A DNA stretch of 64,000 bases from Exiguobacterium sp. s124. Lineage in GTDB: Bacteria; Bacillota; Bacilli; Exiguobacteriales; Exiguobacteriaceae. Below are positions 25,126 through 33,656 of the stretch, piece after piece. The position numbers and the translations under genes are program-made. The stretch covers positions 124,001 through 188,000 of the forward strand of contig NZ_JACSKH010000001.1 in assembly GCF_018617485.1 (NCBI RefSeq), written 5' to 3'. Numbering within the stretch: the stretch's first letter is position 1; each line of letters begins with the position of its first letter. Below the pieces are notes generated by a model. It was not told where the DNA came from and did not search any database. It saw nothing but the letters and a program-made list of their open reading frames with translations.

Positions 25126-26190
25126 ATGGAACGATTGGCAGACACATATCGTCAGACAGATGTTCAGTTGAGCGGTCACGGGAAACGAGAAGTCGGGGTG
25201 TTGAAACGCGCGTTTGAACAGGTGCGTGAAGATGAGCCGAGTGACCAGTATGGACAGGGGAAAACGATTCGCCAGTTCGAAGAGAAGATGGCGCACATTC
25301 TCGGGAAAGAATCGGCGGTATTCTTCCCGAGCGGAACGATGGCACAACAGATTGCCTTACGCATTTGGTGTGATGAAACAGGGAAGAAGACGGTCGCATA
25401 TCATCCGCTCTGTCATCTCGAGATTCACGAACAGGATGGCTTGAAAGAGTTACATCACATCGAACCGATCTTGGTCGGGGACGAAAATCGATTGATGACA
25501 CTCGAAGAGATTCAAGCGTTGCCAGACATCGCGTGTCTGTTGCTTGAACTGCCACAACGCGAAATCGGTGGAGAGCTGCCGACGTTCGAAGAGCTCGAAG
25601 CGATTAGCGAGCATTGTCGCGACAAAGGGATTTATCTACATCTAGACGGGGCACGACTGTTCGAATCATTACCGTATTACGAGAAGGAAGCATCTGAGAT
25701 TTGTGCGCTCTTCGATAGCGTGTACGTCTCATTCTATAAAGGAATCGGTGGTATTGCCGGGGCCATCCTTGCTGGACCGAAGGCATTTTGCGACACGTCG
25801 AAAGTATGGAAGCGTCGCTATGGCGGTGACTTGATCAGCTTATATCCATACATCCTTTCTTCGGATTATTATTATGAGTTGCGGAAAGACAAGATGGCCG
25901 AGTATCGAGACGAGGCCGTCCGATTGGCAGCGCGCTTCAATGAACTCGATGGCGTGTGGACGACACCACACATCCCGGTCACAAATATGTTCCATCTTCA
26001 CTTCCATGGGGCAAAGGAGGAAGTAGGTGAGCGGATTGCAGGAATCCAAGAAAAAACGGGGATTGGCATCACCGGTTATCTCGTTGAAAAAGAAGGGTAC
26101 TGTTCGACAGAAATCAGTATTGGTGATGTCTATCTTGAGATTAATTCCAATCAACTTGATGATGTATTTAGACAATTCCATGCTGAATGA
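25126..26190 (+). CDS. Threonine-aldolase-like PLP beta-eliminating lyase
   Basis: 354 residues of the beta_elim_lyase family (L-threonine/allo-threonine aldolase type), fold-type I PLP enzyme. FFPSGTMAQQIALR (about 66-79) binds the PLP phosphate, IYLHLDGARLFE (about 172-183) gives the conserved Asp, and SFYKGIGGIAGA (about 203-214) the Schiff-base lysine. Probably cleaves threonine or a related beta-hydroxy amino acid to glycine and aldehyde; substrate not proven. GAGGAGGGTAAAGG precedes the ATG. Confidence 0.82.
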   Translation: MERLADTYRQTDVQLSGHGKREVGVLKRAFEQVREDEPSDQYGQGKTIRQFEEKMAHILGKESAVFFPSGTMAQQIALRIWCDETGKKTVAYHPLCHLEIHEQDGLKELHHIEPILVGDENRLMTLEEIQALPDIACLLLELPQREIGGELPTFEELEAISEHCRDKGIYLHLDGARLFESLPYYEKEASEICALFDSVYVSFYKGIGGIAGAILAGPKAFCDTSKVWKRRYGGDLISLYPYILSSDYYYELRKDKMAEYRDEAVRLAARFNELDGVWTTPHIPVTNMFHLHFHGAKEEVGERIAGIQEKTGIGITGYLVEKEGYCSTEISIGDVYLEINSNQLDDVFRQFHAE

Positions 26191-26194
26191 GCGT

Positions 26195-26231
26195 AAAGCC
26201 TTGAAGAGCGTTGATCTTCAAGGCTTTTTTA
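26195..26231 (+). terminator. Terminator after the lyase gene
   Basis: AAAGCCTTGAAGA and TCTTCAAGGCTTT form a perfect 13-bp stem followed by a T-run. Confidence 0.88.
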
Positions 26232-26248
26232 TATTGAGATAAATCTCG

Positions 26249-26280
26249 CTTTCCAAAGTGATTAAAGTCACTTCGGAAAG
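26249..26280. repeat. Long dyad upstream of the sulfide oxidoreductase gene
   Basis: CTTTCC-A-AAGTGA-TTAAAG-TCACTT-C-GGAAAG: two 6-bp arms on each side, symmetrical with a single unpaired position. There is no T-run, so it is not a simple terminator. It sits about 185 bp before the sqr start and could be a regulator site. Confidence 0.6.
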
Positions 26281-26464
26281 AGGAGAGCGTAAACAGACTT
26301 TTCAATAAACCAGTGTGTTATACAACATATATCAACAGTGTGGACGGAAATTGAGGGACTTCCCCTATATCAAATGTATACGCTTTCAAATATGCTTGAT
26401 TTGTAGAGTAGTTCACTTATTTGTCAAAAAATAACGCGTGATGAAACGGAAGGGGCTGTATAGG

Positions 26465-27658
26465 ATGCGTATGCATTATCGTATTGTCATTATCGGTGCG
26501 GGAACTGGGGGAATCAGTGTAGCGGCAAGATTGCTTCGAGAGAAGCATCATTTGAAAGATGAGATTCTACTGATTGATCCTGCCACTACCCATTATTATC
26601 AACCGTTATGGACGCTAGTCGGAGCAGGTATCGTGAAGAAAGAAGAGTCAGCCCGCCCGATGGATTCTCTCATCCCTGATGGGGCGAAGTGGTTACAAGA
26701 TCATGTAACGACATTTGATCCTGAAAACAATCAAGTCGAAACGTCAAGTCACGGAAAGATTCAATATGATTTTCTCATCGTGTCACCAGGGATTGAAATT
26801 GACTGGGGACGCATCAAAGGATTAAAAGAATCGCTTGGAACAAAAGGGGTCTGCAGTAACTACTCATACGAACACGTTGACTACACGTGGGATACACTCG
26901 AGAAGTTTACAGGAGGAACTGCATTGTTCACACATCCAGCCACTCCAGTGAAATGTGGGGGTGCCCCTCAAAAAATCATGTATCTAGCTGAAGAGTATTT
27001 AGCGAAGAAAGGGATTCGAGATTCGAGTCGAGTGGTCTTCGGTTCAGCCAATCCTGCCATTTTTGATGTTGCGAAGTATCGTGATGCATTAGAAATTGTA
27101 CTTGAACGAAAACAGATTGAAACGCATTTCCGGGTAAATCTGACGGAAATAAAAGCAGATGAAAAAATTGCGATTTTTGAAAACTTAGATTCAGGTGAAT
27201 CGTTCGAGATGAGTTATGACATGATTCATGTCACACCACCGATGCAAGCTCCAGCTTTTGTTCGAAATAGTTCATTGGCAGACTCCGGTGGTTGGGTCGA
27301 TGTCGACAAATATACACTTCAACATAAACAATTTAAAAATGTGTTCGGGTTAGGTGACTGTACGAACTTACCGACATCGAAGACAGGTGCAGCGATTCGA
27401 AAACAGGCACCTGTCGTTGTCCAAAATGTACTGGATGCAATGTATGGCCATTTGCCGATTGCTTCTTATGACGGTTATTCTTCGTGTCCGATTGTCACGG
27501 GATATGGTTCATTGATTCTAGCAGAGTTTGATTATGATAAAGTTCCACAAGAATCGATGCCGTTCAATCAAGCAAAAGAAAGACGAAGCATGTACATTTT
27601 GAAAAAAGACTTTTTACCGATTATGTACTGGAACGGCATGTTGAAAGGGACGATGTGA
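26465..27658 (+). CDS. sqr: Sulfide:quinone oxidoreductase
   Basis: 397-residue FAD disulfide reductase, peripheral membrane enzyme that oxidises sulfide to sulfane sulfur and passes electrons to the quinone pool. N-terminal FAD loop IIGAGTGGISVAAR (9-22). Candidate redox cysteines are Cys130 (GVCSNYSYEH), Cys164 (TPVKCGGAPQK) and Cys341 (CPIVTGYG). GLGDCTNLPTSKTGAA is the second FAD motif. ATG 26465 is chosen (GGAAGGGG 9 nt upstream; homologues start here) over GTG 26438. Followed 16 nt later by a DUF1641 gene, a common partnership. Confidence 0.9.
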   Translation: MRMHYRIVIIGAGTGGISVAARLLREKHHLKDEILLIDPATTHYYQPLWTLVGAGIVKKEESARPMDSLIPDGAKWLQDHVTTFDPENNQVETSSHGKIQYDFLIVSPGIEIDWGRIKGLKESLGTKGVCSNYSYEHVDYTWDTLEKFTGGTALFTHPATPVKCGGAPQKIMYLAEEYLAKKGIRDSSRVVFGSANPAIFDVAKYRDALEIVLERKQIETHFRVNLTEIKADEKIAIFENLDSGESFEMSYDMIHVTPPMQAPAFVRNSSLADSGGWVDVDKYTLQHKQFKNVFGLGDCTNLPTSKTGAAIRKQAPVVVQNVLDAMYGHLPIASYDGYSSCPIVTGYGSLILAEFDYDKVPQESMPFNQAKERRSMYILKKDFLPIMYWNGMLKGTM

Positions 27659-27674: not shown

Positions 27675-28235
27675 ATGGAACGTTCTGCATTTGAAGAACA
27701 AACGGTCGAGACCGTACTGACAAGACCTGACGTTGAACAAGCACTGATTGCACTGATCGATCGTTTGCCCAAAATTGAACAGTCTCTCCGCCGTTTAGAG
27801 GATGCTGTTGATTTTGGTATGGCAACGATGAAAGATGAATCGGTAAAAGAGAAAGTTGACGCGGCCATCGACAATTCCAATATCCAAATCGAAACGCTGG
27901 AAGCGGCTATAAAACTGACCGAAAAGTTGCCGATGTTACTACAGGTGACGAATCAACTTGAGTCCATGTTCTCGTTTGTTCAAGATGTATACCACGATGA
28001 ACAAACAAAAGCATTAATTGAGCAACGGATCGAAGAGTATGCCGTGCCAGCGAAAGAGAAGGCTGAATGGACACGAGAAATGTGGACAGAAGTACAACAA
28101 CGTGTCGAACAGGATGACCGCCACATCACCCTATTTTCACTCATGCGTTGGATTAAAGAACCATCAGTTCAACACGGCCTTAAATACGTTCAAGCGACTG
28201 TTGATGTACTAAACGAACGGACAATCAAACGTTAA
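27675..28235 (+). CDS. DUF1641 protein associated with SQR
   Basis: 186 residues, soluble, strongly helical. RPDVEQALIALIDRLPKIEQ at the N-terminus and SLMRWIKEPSVQHGLKYV near the C-terminus fit DUF1641, often found beside sulfide:quinone reductases and formate dehydrogenase-like genes. Its biochemical role is unknown; proximity suggests it helps sulfide oxidation. AAAGGAGAGATCGTA precedes the ATG. Confidence 0.8.
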   Translation: MERSAFEEQTVETVLTRPDVEQALIALIDRLPKIEQSLRRLEDAVDFGMATMKDESVKEKVDAAIDNSNIQIETLEAAIKLTEKLPMLLQVTNQLESMFSFVQDVYHDEQTKALIEQRIEEYAVPAKEKAEWTREMWTEVQQRVEQDDRHITLFSLMRWIKEPSVQHGLKYVQATVDVLNERTIKR

Positions 28236-28323: not shown

Positions 28324-28352
28324 TTTGGGTTTGTTTACCCATAGGGGTATTA
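28324..28352 (+). promoter_or_regulatory. Two-component operon promoter with CsoR/CstR-like operator in spacer
   Basis: TTGGGT (28324-28329), 17 bp, TATTAT (28347-28352). Between and overlapping the -10 lies TACCCATAGGGGTA (28335-28348), an inverted repeat with TACCC/GGGTA arms. This is the form of operators bound by CsoR-family repressors (copper- or persulfide-sensing); it also fits two back-to-back NarL-type heptamers. No csoR gene is in the window. Confidence 0.6.
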
Positions 28353-28389
28353 TGGATATAAGAACTGAAAGAGTGCGGAGGGGGTAACG

Positions 28390-29415
28390 TTGACACTACG
28401 TGACTTTGAACATCAAATATTAGACGTACTCAAAGACGGTGTGATTGTGATGGACCATGACCGAACCATCATCTCGATGAATCAATCGGCCGAACAATTG
28501 ACGGGATGGCAAATCGGTGAACCGGTTCCTTATTGTTCTTTTTGTCAGAAGAGAAACGTGAACATTGGCGAAGAACGTTGCTATTTGATTGAACATGAAC
28601 GTTCCCCATATTTCACCTCGGAGATGCCGACATACTCTGGGAACATGGTTGATGTCGAGATGAACACGGCACGCATCTTAAATGATCCGACAACCGGTGC
28701 GACATACTATCTGCTCGTCTTACGAGATTTCACAGAACGAAAACGCAGGGAAGCGCATATTTTGAGAGAACAAATGGTTCGGGAATTGATTCGGGCGAGA
28801 GAAGAGGAGCATGAACGATTGGCTCAAGAGTTACATGATGGGGTCGGGCAATCGCTGTTTAGTATTACGCTTGCCTTGAATTCACTGCAATCAGACGTCG
28901 TTGATCCCGATAAAAAAGAATATTTGAGTTCTGTCATTTCTGAAGTGAGTCTTCTAATGGATCACGTAAGAAATTATTCAAAACAGTTGAGACCAGTCGA
29001 ACTTGATCAATTTGGACTGGAATCTGCACTACACGTGTTATTTGATAGTTTTGCCACTCGGTATCCGAACGTCGCATTTCATACGGACTTCCGACTAAAG
29101 ACACGATGTGACGCTCTTGTTGAGATTAATGTATATCGGATTGTTCAAGAGGCACTTGTGAACGCGATGAAATATGCGAACCCGACACATATAGATTGTC
29201 GAATCACGGAGCATGATGGACGAATCGAATTGTTATTCTGGGATGATGGGATTGGCTTTGATTCTCGCGAAGTTTCGAAAGGGTTAGGGCTACGTCACAT
29301 GGAAGAGAGAGCAAAAACAATAGAAGGTTTGTTTCAGATCGTTTCGGTGATCGGACACGGGACTGAAATTTTAGTGTCGATTCCGAGAGAGCGAGGTCAT
29401 GATGAAACCGATTGA
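28390..29415 (+). CDS. Sensor histidine kinase, PAS with cysteine cluster, HisKA_3 type
   Basis: 341 residues without membrane helices: PAS domain (about 1-115), then HisKA_3 with the phosphoacceptor His149 in AQELHDGVGQS, and HATPase with IVQEALVNAMKYA (about 255), DDGIGFD and GLGLRHMEERA. The PAS domain carries Cys49, Cys52 and Cys64 (CSFCQKRNVNIGEERC), suggesting metal, Fe-S or thiol-based sensing, comparable in principle to the cytosolic oxygen sensor NreB. Starts with TTG preceded by GGAGGGGG. Overlaps the response regulator by 17 nt. Confidence 0.87.
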   Translation: MTLRDFEHQILDVLKDGVIVMDHDRTIISMNQSAEQLTGWQIGEPVPYCSFCQKRNVNIGEERCYLIEHERSPYFTSEMPTYSGNMVDVEMNTARILNDPTTGATYYLLVLRDFTERKRREAHILREQMVRELIRAREEEHERLAQELHDGVGQSLFSITLALNSLQSDVVDPDKKEYLSSVISEVSLLMDHVRNYSKQLRPVELDQFGLESALHVLFDSFATRYPNVAFHTDFRLKTRCDALVEINVYRIVQEALVNAMKYANPTHIDCRITEHDGRIELLFWDDGIGFDSREVSKGLGLRHMEERAKTIEGLFQIVSVIGHGTEILVSIPRERGHDETD

Positions 29416-30046
29416 TGTATTGATCGTCGATGACCATGAACTGGTTCGTCGCGGATTGAAACTGATGTTTCGTTCGAATGAGCGAATTCGTGTAGTCAGT
29501 GAAGCGGGGGAAGGAGCGGCAGCGATACAAGAAGCGATTCGAACCAGTCCAGACGTCGTTTTACTTGATATTACGATGCCGAACGGGTTGGATGGTTTTT
29601 TGACGGTTCAAGCGCTCGCTGAGGAAGTGCCTTCCGCAAAAATCATCTTACTGACGATGCACGATGAAGAGATTTATATCAAACGCGCTCTTGAACTAGG
29701 GGTACTAGGTTATATGTCGAAAAATAGCGATCCATCTCAGCTATCTGAGGGAATTGAGAGCGTATTTGAAGGAAAACGATATTACGCCACTTCGTTGACC
29801 GAGGAACAGATGGAGAGGATTGTCCTTCAAAAGAACAATCATCCGTTATTGACACGCCGGGAACTAGAAATCGTGCGGTTGTCGACTTTAGGATATAGCC
29901 ATAATGAAATCGGAGAAAAATTAGGAATCAGTCCCAAAACAGTAGAGAATCATAAAGCTCGGATTATGAACAAACTGCAGATGAAGCACCGACACGAATT
30001 GGTGCAATACGCCTTGAAAAATCATTTGATTGAAATGGAAGGATGA
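29399..30046 (+). CDS. NarL/FixJ-family response regulator
   Basis: 215 residues: receiver domain with acidic pocket DD (11-12), phosphoacceptor Asp57 in VVLLDITMPNG and the conserved Lys (about 107, GYMSKNS); C-terminal LuxR-type HTH (about 145-205, LTRRELEIVRLSTLGYSHNEIGEKLGIS region). Partner of the preceding kinase. ATG 29399 and 29402 are both possible. ATGA overlap with the next gene. Confidence 0.92.
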   Translation: MMKPIDVLIVDDHELVRRGLKLMFRSNERIRVVSEAGEGAAAIQEAIRTSPDVVLLDITMPNGLDGFLTVQALAEEVPSAKIILLTMHDEEIYIKRALELGVLGYMSKNSDPSQLSEGIESVFEGKRYYATSLTEEQMERIVLQKNNHPLLTRRELEIVRLSTLGYSHNEIGEKLGISPKTVENHKARIMNKLQMKHRHELVQYALKNHLIEMEG

Positions 30047-30426
30047 CTGAAGGTATGAAGTTAGAAGTAGAAAAAACAATCGATTCACAATATATCCAGC
30101 AGCACCTAGCGAACGAGCGGACGTTCCTCGCATGGATTCGTACTGCGATTACCGTAATTGGGATCGGTTTCTTAGTGACGAACTTTCATTATTATCGAAG
30201 CGAGAATTTGAGTGGTGCAGAACATCAATTGATCTCAGCAATCGGAATGTTATCGATTTTGTTTGGCATCAGTACAATTCTTGTAGGAACCCGTTCCTAT
30301 TTGAAAAAAGTGCATACGATTAACACGCAACAATTCAAATCTGCGAAGATGAGTCTCATTGCCTTGGCAATTGGGATGGTCTTCATCTTTTCACTAATCC
30401 TCGTCGTGAGCTACTTCTTGTTTTGA
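30043..30426 (+). CDS. DUF202 (YidH-like) membrane protein
   Basis: 127 residues: conserved N-terminal ANERTFLAWIRTAITVIGIG (about 24-43) and three membrane helices. DUF202 proteins are small inner-membrane proteins without an established function. It overlaps the response-regulator stop by 4 nt, so it is a co-translated output or accessory part of the two-component system. Confidence 0.85.
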   Translation: MTEGMKLEVEKTIDSQYIQQHLANERTFLAWIRTAITVIGIGFLVTNFHYYRSENLSGAEHQLISAIGMLSILFGISTILVGTRSYLKKVHTINTQQFKSAKMSLIALAIGMVFIFSLILVVSYFLF

Positions 30427-30471: not shown

Positions 30472-30972
30472 TTACTGCGTCACAATCGCTTCAAGACGAT
30501 CGAGTTGAGAGGTGAACCCTTCGACAGCGCCCATCTCGACGACTTGTCGGAGAGCCTCTTCATTCGGGAATTCGGAGCGGCTAATGAATAACGTGCCTTC
30601 CGATGTATCGAGAAATTCATTCGTAATCGTCATGACAGGCAAGTCCGGGTTGACGTGTCCGTCCGCATCCGAGAACGCATCCGTATAGACGATTCGTGAG
30701 TAAGGGTCGATGTCGATAAAGGTCGATTTTCCCCATGACTCCATACCGTAAAAGTCACCTTGATCTTTGTCGACACAAGTCATGCAATAATGCCAAATTC
30801 CATCTGGTTTGAAGTCGAAGCTGTATACTTTCGTCTCCCATCCAGACGGTCCCCACCATTTTTCTAAATGTGCGGGTGTCGAGAATGCTTCAAATACAAG
30901 TTGACGTGGTGCCTTGAACAGACGTTCCATGATCAATGTCGTGCCCTCTACATGTGATTTGACCGTACTCAT
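30472..30972 (-). CDS. SRPBCC/AHSA1-type ligand-binding protein
   Basis: 166 residues in the START-like AHSA1 fold: MERLFKAPRQLVFEAFSTP (about 15-33), LEKWWGPSGWET and WHYCMTC. Members bind hydrophobic ligands and are very often paired with an ArsR-type regulator, as here. ATG 30972 overlaps the arsR-like stop (ATGA); the longer open frame to 31059 lies inside the regulator gene. Ligand unknown. Confidence 0.87.
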   Translation of the reverse strand: MSTVKSHVEGTTLIMERLFKAPRQLVFEAFSTPAHLEKWWGPSGWETKVYSFDFKPDGIWHYCMTCVDKDQGDFYGMESWGKSTFIDIDPYSRIVYTDAFSDADGHVNPDLPVMTITNEFLDTSEGTLFISRSEFPNEEALRQVVEMGAVEGFTSQLDRLEAIVTQ

Positions 30973-31301
30973 GATCCATTCTCCTCTCGTTGTGACTCCG
31001 CTAAAAACGTCTCCAATCGATCGAGTCGCTCTGTTTCCCGAGCCATATAGGTCCGCCAAGCATCCAACGGTTTGAGTGCTTGAGACTTGAGTGCGTAGCG
31101 TCTTCGATTGGCATCAATGGTTACCGTGACGAGACCTGCGTCGTATAGAATTCGCAAATGCTTCGATGTCTGCGGTTGACTAATCCCAAGCTGATTTGCC
31201 ATCATTCCGACCGTCCACTCTTGTTTCCGTAACAATTCGATCATCCGCAACCGGTTCGGGTCGGCTAACGCATGAAACAAAGAAGCCAATCTCTCTTCCA
31301 T
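30969..31301 (-). CDS. ArsR-family winged-helix regulator
   Basis: 110 residues: LFHALADPNRLRMIELLRKQ (about 7-26), NQLGISQPQTSKHLRILYDAGLV recognition region (about 36-58) and a C-terminal helix. No ArsR/SmtB metal-binding cysteine motif is visible, so it probably senses a non-metal signal or the ligand of its SRPBCC partner. A perfect dyad 26 bp upstream is its likely operator. Confidence 0.88.
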   Translation of the reverse strand: MEERLASLFHALADPNRLRMIELLRKQEWTVGMMANQLGISQPQTSKHLRILYDAGLVTVTIDANRRRYALKSQALKPLDAWRTYMARETERLDRLETFLAESQREENGS

Positions 31302-31364: not shown

Positions 31365-33656
31365 TCAATATTTAAACAATAAATCAAGTAGTATCTCACC
31401 AATCAATCGTTCTTTTCCCTCATAGGGGAACGCATGGATATGAATGGCGGGATTAAAATTCAGTTCGATGATGCCGTATTCAATATGCTCATCATTAAGA
31501 GATGGAATCATCATATCGACACCACAGATGGTTGCCCCGACTGACTTAGCGGCATCGACAGCAATGCGTTTATAGACGTCAGGAATTTGGTCTGTGTAGT
31601 CGATACTGTCGCCACCTGTACTGATATTAGAGTTTTCGCGCAAGAAGACACGCTCACCGACAGCGGGGATACTGTCAGGTGTCATATCTTGTGCACGTAA
31701 AAAGGAAATGACGATGTCATCGATTTCAATTTTCTCGAGTGGTGTCTTGTATCCTTTTCCGCGTAACGGGTCTTCATTTTTTGTCGCAACGAGTTGACGA
31801 ATGGAAGAGGTGCCATCTCCAGTGACGTTCGCCGGGACACGATGGAGGATGCCCGCGACTTCCTCTCCGATGACGAGGAAGCGATACTCTTTTCCAGGTA
31901 AGAATGTCTCTAGTAAAACGACATCGTCAAACGTTTTCGCATACTGAAATGCAGAGAGTGCTTCCTCATACGTCGCTCCGTCTTTAAAAATGTGAATACC
32001 GACTCCGAAGTTTGTGGACTTTGGTTTTAAGACGATGGGGTGTTTTGAAAATGAATGCCATGCCTGAGATAAATCCGATTCCTCTTGAAGTTCTACCCCT
32101 TCAGGGACACGAATGCCGTGTTCGGTGAGTACAAACTTCGTCACCGTTTTATTCTCCATCATTAAGACGGAAACATAATTGTCTTTTGATGTTTTCGTTG
32201 CCTGTTTGACGTATTCTTCGTGTTTGCCGTTTCGAATCCGAATGAACTGGTCGGAACGATCGATGACGTCGACACGATAACCACGTTTAATTGCGGATTT
32301 CATTAAGATTTGAGTAGACAGTTCCAGGTCGGCATAACCGTGGATGCGAAAACGATTTGCATAGGCGTCCTCATAAAAATGTTCTGCTTGGGCTAGGGAC
32401 CATGCGTGATAGCCTGTCTCGGTCATAATCGTCTTTAATCGGGAAGCGTACGTCCGGTCCACGTGATCAATTTTTTCGCGTACAGCGGGAAAGACATCTT
32501 CGAAGCCGAGGCCATGGTGTGTGTTGAACGCATCGATGGCATCGAAAAGTTCTGTTGCGTACGTGTGTAAAGGTATGGCGTGACCATCTCGAGTCAATAT
32601 GCTTGTAGGAGACATGCCTTCTTTGGCGACACGTTGTTGATTATTGTACGTTTCAGCTTGCCAATCGAAATAAGGTGTCTCCTCAGTAAAGGTCAAGTAC
32701 AGCAAAAACAGATGAAGGAACCGTAAATCCGAACGCGCAATTCCGGTCTTTTCAAACGGATTCAAATCAATATTGCGAATTTCGATATAATCGATGCCGT
32801 GTGCTTCGAGTTGATTTAAATCGTTACCACCTTTCGATGTTTTCAATCGGATGGGGGAGTAAAGTTCGTTCGGATTGGCAATCTCGCCTTTGGCAATGAA
32901 CCGTCTTACGTCGTCTATATAACTTGAGAGTGTCGCATAATTTGGATAAAGCGGTTCAACATTCGTATACCCACAGTCGCTATTCCGATATGACAATGCT
33001 TGTTTATTTGAAAAAGTATCTTCGTGGAGTGCTTGCATCTGACTGACACATTGTTCTTCATAACTCACATGAACGGCTGGTGTAGCACCGAACAAATAGA
33101 CGATGAGCCAACGCATCCGTAAATATTGACGAATCAACTTTAAGTAAAGCTGATCTTTGAAGTGTCGATATTGTTCAGGGGATCCTTCGTACAGTGCGGA
33201 TAACATCTCATCGGAAAACGAAAAGTTGAAATGGATTCCGGAAATGAGTTGTTTTTTCGCCCCATACTTGTGGAGCAAATGCTCCCGGTAACGGCTAGCT
33301 TCGAGTCCAGTCACACCAAAATCAGCGAGTGGAATCGTGCCACCTTCCGGCAATGCGCATGGCATAGATTGTGGCCACAGGCGTTCGTCGCCTATGTTTA
33401 GCGCCGTGATGTCGTATAGCGTTTCTAAAAAGTCATGTGCCGCCTCGATTGTCGGAAATGTCGGGGTGATGAGCTCGATTTGACTTTCCGAGAAGTCAGT
33501 CGTGATATATGGATGTGTCGCTTTATGACCGAGTGCTTTTGGATGCTTCGTAACAGCGAGTGTGCCGTCTGACGTGACCCGTAACATTTCTCGCTCGATG
33601 GCAAATTTTCCACTCGTGATGAGCTGGTGGGGTAGTTGATTAAACTGCTTCTGCAA
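31365..33656 (-). CDS. gshAB: Bifunctional glutamate-cysteine ligase / glutathione synthetase (GshF)
   Basis: 763 residues, the length of GshF fusion enzymes that make glutathione in one polypeptide. N-terminal gamma-glutamylcysteine ligase domain (about 1-480: GKFAIEREMLRV, TTDFSESQIELITP, YIEIRNIDLNPF) and C-terminal ATP-grasp glutathione synthetase domain (about 490-760: HPIVLKPKSTNFGVGIHIF, LVIGEEVAGILHR, GVDMMIPS, IIELNFNPAIHIHAFP). It starts with TTG (AAGGAAG about 10 nt upstream) and overlaps the MATE gene by 17 nt, so the two form an operon. Confidence 0.93.
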   Translation of the reverse strand: MQKQFNQLPHQLITSGKFAIEREMLRVTSDGTLAVTKHPKALGHKATHPYITTDFSESQIELITPTFPTIEAAHDFLETLYDITALNIGDERLWPQSMPCALPEGGTIPLADFGVTGLEASRYREHLLHKYGAKKQLISGIHFNFSFSDEMLSALYEGSPEQYRHFKDQLYLKLIRQYLRMRWLIVYLFGATPAVHVSYEEQCVSQMQALHEDTFSNKQALSYRNSDCGYTNVEPLYPNYATLSSYIDDVRRFIAKGEIANPNELYSPIRLKTSKGGNDLNQLEAHGIDYIEIRNIDLNPFEKTGIARSDLRFLHLFLLYLTFTEETPYFDWQAETYNNQQRVAKEGMSPTSILTRDGHAIPLHTYATELFDAIDAFNTHHGLGFEDVFPAVREKIDHVDRTYASRLKTIMTETGYHAWSLAQAEHFYEDAYANRFRIHGYADLELSTQILMKSAIKRGYRVDVIDRSDQFIRIRNGKHEEYVKQATKTSKDNYVSVLMMENKTVTKFVLTEHGIRVPEGVELQEESDLSQAWHSFSKHPIVLKPKSTNFGVGIHIFKDGATYEEALSAFQYAKTFDDVVLLETFLPGKEYRFLVIGEEVAGILHRVPANVTGDGTSSIRQLVATKNEDPLRGKGYKTPLEKIEIDDIVISFLRAQDMTPDSIPAVGERVFLRENSNISTGGDSIDYTDQIPDVYKRIAVDAAKSVGATICGVDMMIPSLNDEHIEYGIIELNFNPAIHIHAFPYEGKERLIGEILLDLLFKY

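Follow-up and report, generated by a model that had tools for sequence, protein, structure and literature searches.

A candidate CstR-type operator in the promoter of a two-component operon next to sqr in Exiguobacterium sp. s124

In Exiguobacterium sp. s124 the promoter of a two-component operon that lies next to a gene of the sulfide:quinone reductase type (sqr) carries an inverted repeat, which raises the question of which regulator would act on it. The window analysed is a stretch of 64,000 nucleotides of this genome. An earlier note on this DNA placed a CsoR/CstR-like operator, probably of CstR, between TTGGGT and TATTAT, in the promoter of a two-component operon with sqr as the adjacent upstream unit, and named a pair of NarL-type heptamers as the alternative. 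Coordinates and comparison within the genus confirm the motif in this place, and the operon and its upstream neighbor are as described there. With a probability of about 0.8, the sequence comparisons reported below indicate that the operator is a site for the CstR-like persulfide sensor of the same genome, which would control the kinase operon in the manner proposed in the last section. The features of the locus are as follows:

26258–26271, palindrome: Crp/Fnr-like palindrome GTGATTAAAGTCAC (GTGA-N6-TCAC), upstream of sqr
26352–26367, + strand: putative response-regulator (NreC-type) box TGAGGGACTTCCCCTA, a palindrome, before sqr
26465–27658, + strand: sqr; ATG 26465 is the likelier start, the ORF being open from 26438
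27675–28235, + strand: small protein encoded between the sqr and kinase genes; we take it to be DUF1641-like, and at E 0.01 Pfam gives no match
28325–28330, + strand: −35-like TTGGGT, a poor match (3/6) to TTGACA
28336–28350, + strand: candidate CstR-type operator TACCCATAGGGGTAT, of the form TAC-X8-GTA
28348–28353, + strand: −10-like TATTAT, 5/6 match to TATAAT
28390–29415, + strand: NreB-like PAS histidine kinase with a TTG start (PAS, HisKA_3, and HATPase_c domains)
29399–30046, + strand: NreC-like response regulator of the NarL family (Response_reg and GerE domains)
30043–30426, + strand: DUF202 membrane protein (domain assignment), third gene of the operon

The operator and its promoter

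The operator, whose first 14 bases TACCCATAGGGGTA span 28336–28349 on the + strand, lies in the 17-bp spacer between the −35-like and −10-like hexamers and contributes its final three bases as the first three of the latter; its first base stands 54 bp upstream of the kinase start codon. The ORFs of kinase, regulator and DUF202 protein overlap. When both strands of the window were searched with up to three mismatches allowed, the operator was the sole place matched; this count is what chance would give (shuffle mean 1.41), and the case for the operator therefore rests on comparison.

A weight matrix was trained on 38 sites of the genus taken from dioxygenase and cstR promoters, with no kinase-promoter sites included. 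On this matrix the operator 15-mer ranks first among all 15-mers of the window on both strands (8.0, the next scoring 5.8). Its score is the lowest of the kinase-promoter sites, the others reaching 10.2–14.2, because its positions 5–8 read CATA as opposed to NNAG in all 38 training sites; this low rank is the chief weakness in the case for the operator. In an alignment of the five intergenic stretches from genomes that have the kinase, 12 of the 15 operator positions are invariant, compared with 35 of the 143 positions in the remainder of the stretch.

Distribution of the motif and the regulator that would read it

A scan of the genome for csoR/cstR genes and for the motif, a check proposed in the earlier note, found two CsoR-family genes, one CstR-like and one CsoR-like, and four exact matches to the strict 15-mer TACC-N4-GGGGTAT in 2.82 Mb (15 contigs), the reversed control giving none. 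The lack of any CsoR-family gene, which that note named among its grounds for refutation, does not apply to this genome. The first match lies between cstR and the sulfur operon that cstR faces, which begins with a rhodanese followed by a CoA-disulfide-reductase-like/rhodanese/TusA/DsrE fusion. The second precedes a rhodanese and then a metallo-beta-lactamase/rhodanese protein of the persulfide-dioxygenase type, a unit divergent from rhodanese-TauE; the third precedes a rhodanese, probably membrane-anchored, just beyond the window; and the fourth is the operator in the kinase promoter. The CstR-like gene (C2:287680–287952) is on a different contig from the kinase locus, and its product has two cysteines, an asparagine at the position of the CsoR histidine and 7mq1 as its closest solved chain.

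Across 19 genomes of the genus the strict motif occurs 73 times and its reversed control 17 times. According to coordinates and flanks, 72 of the 73 sites stand before the kinase, a sulfur gene or another gene of this module, and the lone exception (G008:C2:219887) has no related gene seen nearby. The sites are found at cstR (19) and before the dioxygenase unit (19), the membrane rhodanese (19), the kinase (5), a gene divergent from sqr (4) and a CitMHS-type permease (4), with one each before sqr and DUF202 in genome G002 and the one unrelated site in G008. The cstR/rhodanese, rhodanese-dioxygenase and membrane-rhodanese units each carry the motif in 19/19 genomes, and in the same promoter register, the −35 being taken in this comparison as the best of three spacings; at all 14 sites examined, the TAT of the motif opens a hexamer with at least 5/6 identity to TATAAT. 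The kinase is present in five of the 19 genomes (E 1e-60) and is preceded by the motif at 45–58 bp in all five, while the motif also occurs in the 14 genomes without kinase.

Some of these loci have features of their own. One genome, G005, encodes a second kinase, 62% identical, for which a strict site is absent from the 20 kb read; this kinase/regulator pair (L068:7459–10709 and L060:23–5731, on G005:C6) belongs to a cluster with the order sqr-small protein-dioxygenase-TauE-cydAB-kinase-regulator, with a further response regulator nearby (L060:6936–7580). The CitMHS/TrkA-C permease directly preceded by a CstR-type site in four of the 19 genomes (L164, L166, L168, and L177; type assigned by scanning for three of the four) is possibly a sulfur-anion transporter. 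The membrane rhodanese of G012 (L203:357–724) matches as two pieces that overlap but differ in frame, which may reflect a frameshift or an error in sequencing.

It is unlikely that the operator is instead a copper site of CsoR and the two-component system is induced by Cu(I), although in this genome csoR is followed by a gene for a copper-translocating ATPase and although a G-tract repeat with TAC and GTA at its ends is common to the sites of CsoR and CstR (PMC3902906); cross-talk is possible from sequence. The operator shares with CsoR operators the G-tract inverted repeat and its bounds, but the published CsoR spacing is TAC-X9-GTA (PMC3902906), whereas the operator has TAC-X8-GTA, the form common to cst sites and not found at csoR. 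All 19 csoR promoters of the genus carry the G-tract site that is one base longer (TTAC[G/C]GGGTAGGGGTAT in 18 and TTAGGGGGTAGGGGTAT, with TTAG, in G008), the one csoR promoter scored reached −10.3 on the matrix, and among the 73 strict sites in 19 genomes none precedes a copper gene. The strict motif is present both at the operator and at the site of the genome's own cstR cluster.

A NarL site consists of two TACYYMT heptamers in inverted orientation, separated by 2 bp (7-2-7). Both halves of the operator fit this heptamer, the regulator has a GerE/LuxR-type domain and two-component operons are often autoregulated (PMC8774646); autoregulation by the operon's own response regulator through paired heptamers is nonetheless slightly less probable than the copper reading, since the heptamers abut (7-0-7), the motif persists in genomes that lack the kinase and a different palindrome, the one before sqr, tracks the kinase and is the probable target of the regulator. 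The alternative of the earlier note is thus unsupported. Least probable, to the point that we give it hardly any weight, is a chance resemblance without function: the window count would agree with it, but the motif recurs in 5/5 orthologous promoters, nearly all strict sites of the genus stand at related genes and the operator is far more invariant than its surroundings. To judge from sequence, the operator looks like a CstR site rather than a CsoR or NarL site, and the CsoR/CstR-like reading is narrowed to CstR by the CstR-like gene, the motif shared with sulfur units and the longer csoR site.

A bifunctional glutamate-cysteine ligase/glutathione synthetase is encoded at 31365–33656 on the − strand (NCBIfam E 2e-274), and glutathione persulfide may be a CstR signal in this genome. 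A persulfide-sensing role for an ArsR-family gene (30969–31301) was rejected, since no cysteine occurs in its translation.

The sqr promoter and the kinase family

The best NCBIfam model for sqr is type III SQR (E 5.7e-76, below the model's cut-off). Of the link to sqr made in the earlier note, the adjacency holds; in this genome no strict CstR-type site stands in front of sqr, on which CstR would act by way of the two-component system. The box TGAGGGACTTCCCCTA, probably the binding site of this operon's regulator, is identical in the five genomes of the genus with the kinase, and TRRGGGRNNYCCCYYA has a single match in this genome, namely the box before sqr; the relaxed pattern is found away from sqr twice in G001 and once each in G010 and G005. 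In G002 sqr, the small protein and DUF202 are present, the kinase and regulator are absent between them, the sqr promoter has a CstR-type site in place of the regulator box, and DUF202 alone retains the operator. The pairing of box and regulator is supported by this genome, a single case, because the box is absent where kinase and regulator are absent, and the co-variation, as read from sequence in this one genome, shows direct and indirect CstR routes to sqr in one genus.

The upstream region of sqr also holds the Crp/Fnr-like palindrome GTGATTAAAGTCAC, kept in the five genomes with the kinase; Crp-type HTH proteins are encoded in the genome, and the palindrome suggests that sqr responds to oxygen or redox state too. 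In four relatives a TsoY-family gene that has a CstR-type site to itself runs divergently from sqr (L056:767–1948, L057:4216–5394, L058:6156–7337, and L059:716–1888; assigned from one scanned member, to which the others are 72–74% identical). Gene and site are absent here between the aldolase gene and sqr (26188–26464), though this interval still holds the Crp/Fnr-like palindrome and the regulator box.

The wider kinase family was surveyed in 398 genomes of the class, drawn evenly and with at most five candidates scored per genome; at E 1e-70 the kinase was found in 45 of them, as 47 genes in all. A nearby sqr with 50% identity or more accompanies 33 of the 47 kinase loci and is missing from 14, two of which (L103 and L106) are on contigs shorter than 9 kb. 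Outside Exiguobacteriaceae strict CstR-type sites were found at four of 38 loci (L105, L133, L134, and L135), that of L105 falling within a coding gene, and because such sites are rare near kinases there the link between operator and kinase is a genus-level trait. CstR genes occur in the flanks of two of 43 other Bacilli loci (E 1e-3; flanks only), and a scan of genome contigs gave seven loci, namely four in Exiguobacterium, one each in Cerasibacillus and Bacillus sp. DNRA2 and a weak match in Acetivibrio.

The staphylococcal NreC target sequence is TAGGG-N4-CCCTA. Among the sqr promoters near a related kinase 31 were scanned, i.e., those of the 33 loci with sqr apart from L110 and L134, and TAGGG-N6-CCCTA was found in 15; as 11 of these come from one family (f22), the 15 are not independent. 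The other 16 comprise the five Exiguobacterium boxes (below the scan cut-off and found on closer look), TGAGGGAATCCCCCTA at L068 and ten whose G/C repeat is shorter or missing.

The PAS domain of the kinase contains C49-X2-C52-X11-C64, invariant in 47/47 homologs, while the two other cysteines of this kinase are conserved in 4/47. The cysteine spacing of staphylococcal NreB is C-X2-C-X11-C-X2-C; in all 47 homologs three cysteines are found, and the fourth position is a non-cysteine in the printed alignment. A solved PAS domain found by sequence, 9wex, has the same three cysteines. Fold searches with the predicted kinase returned histidine kinases and other PAS proteins, 9wex not being among the matches listed. 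The prediction, made from seven sequences, has a mean pLDDT of 75.3 and says nothing on cysteine geometry because confidence is low around residues 51–70 (block means 49 and 55; residues 53–56 below 50). Judged by conservation, the three cysteines are a lead on how such kinases may sense sulfide.

A proposed cascade and its relation to known systems

Of the proposed scheme, the sequences show the operator motif with its promoter register and its conservation across the genus, cstR with the motif that it shares and the separate sqr box that co-occurs with the kinase; partly from the Bacillus licheniformis system we infer CstR binding, repression, the signal of the kinase and the activation of sqr. 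In the absence of persulfide, CstR would sit over the spacer and the first bases of the −10 hexamer and block the kinase/regulator/DUF202 operon. As sulfane sulfur builds up, CstR would be modified and leave, allowing kinase and regulator to be produced; the kinase would then respond to sulfide, and the phosphorylated regulator would bind TGAGGGACTTCCCCTA and activate sqr. Persulfide would thereby license sulfide sensing. A more detailed version of this gate, to which we give somewhat short of even odds, holds that persulfide, through CstR, sets whether the sulfide sensor is made, that the sensor reads its signal at the invariant C-X2-C-X11-C site of the PAS domain (either reactive thiolates or three cysteines that hold a metal or an Fe-S cluster) and not at heme, and that the wiring is modular, as in G002. 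That genome would represent a natural rewiring, with a CstR-type site directly at sqr, the regulator box gone and neither kinase nor regulator.

The operator would add, through genome comparison, an independent example of a sensor cascade that leads from persulfide to sulfide, rewired in trans; in the literature searched, such a cascade is described for one Bacillus. That literature, mostly non-subscription, held no report of this locus under Exiguobacterium with sulfide, CstR, two-component or YrkD/NreBC terms, and the searched passages of PMC9405070 contain no operator sequence. PMC4349456 was set aside since its letters match but a different regulator is concerned.

Staphylococcal NreABC likewise pairs a PAS kinase with a NarL-type regulator that has a G+C-rich palindromic target (PMC8139620), and staphylococcal NreB holds a [4Fe-4S] cluster (PMC8774646, PMC8139620). 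The locus described here differs in having no nreA, a sulfide-oxidation context, three cysteines and a box spacing of N6. With the CstR regulon of Staphylococcus aureus it shares a CstR-like repressor and rhodanese, CoA/persulfide and TauE-type genes, but there CstR appears to control one operon only, as suggested in PMC5480029, whereas here at least three to four dispersed units would be involved, including a two-component system.

In B. licheniformis MW3 (YrkD-NreBC-sqr-pdo; Tang et al., 2023, PMC9918477) a CstR-like repressor stands above an nreBC-type pair acting on sqr, as proposed here: YrkD represses an 11-gene cluster, sulfane sulfur relieves this repression, and NreBC senses sulfide and activates sqr-pdo. 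Both systems have a PAS histidine kinase, a NarL-type regulator, and rhodanese, TauE and dioxygenase genes in the same regulon; the locus here also agrees with the B. licheniformis type in its PAS–HisKA_3–HATPase kinase with a GerE-type regulator, linked to sqr, and in the putative regulator box of the sqr promoter. YrkD does not bind the sqr promoter region, the repressor being inactive at that promoter, as would be the case here, and the authors regard heme as one possible sensing route and the mechanism as needing further work (PMC9918477). The two differ in layout. In B. licheniformis there is a single 11-gene cluster and the repressor reaches nreBC via promoters at the cluster start (PMC9918477), whereas here cstR and the kinase locus are on different contigs, the kinase operon carries a candidate operator of its own, sqr forms a separate unit before the kinase and the dioxygenase is encoded elsewhere. 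The locus in the window is a variant of the B. licheniformis cascade in which the operator would act in trans on a separate operon.
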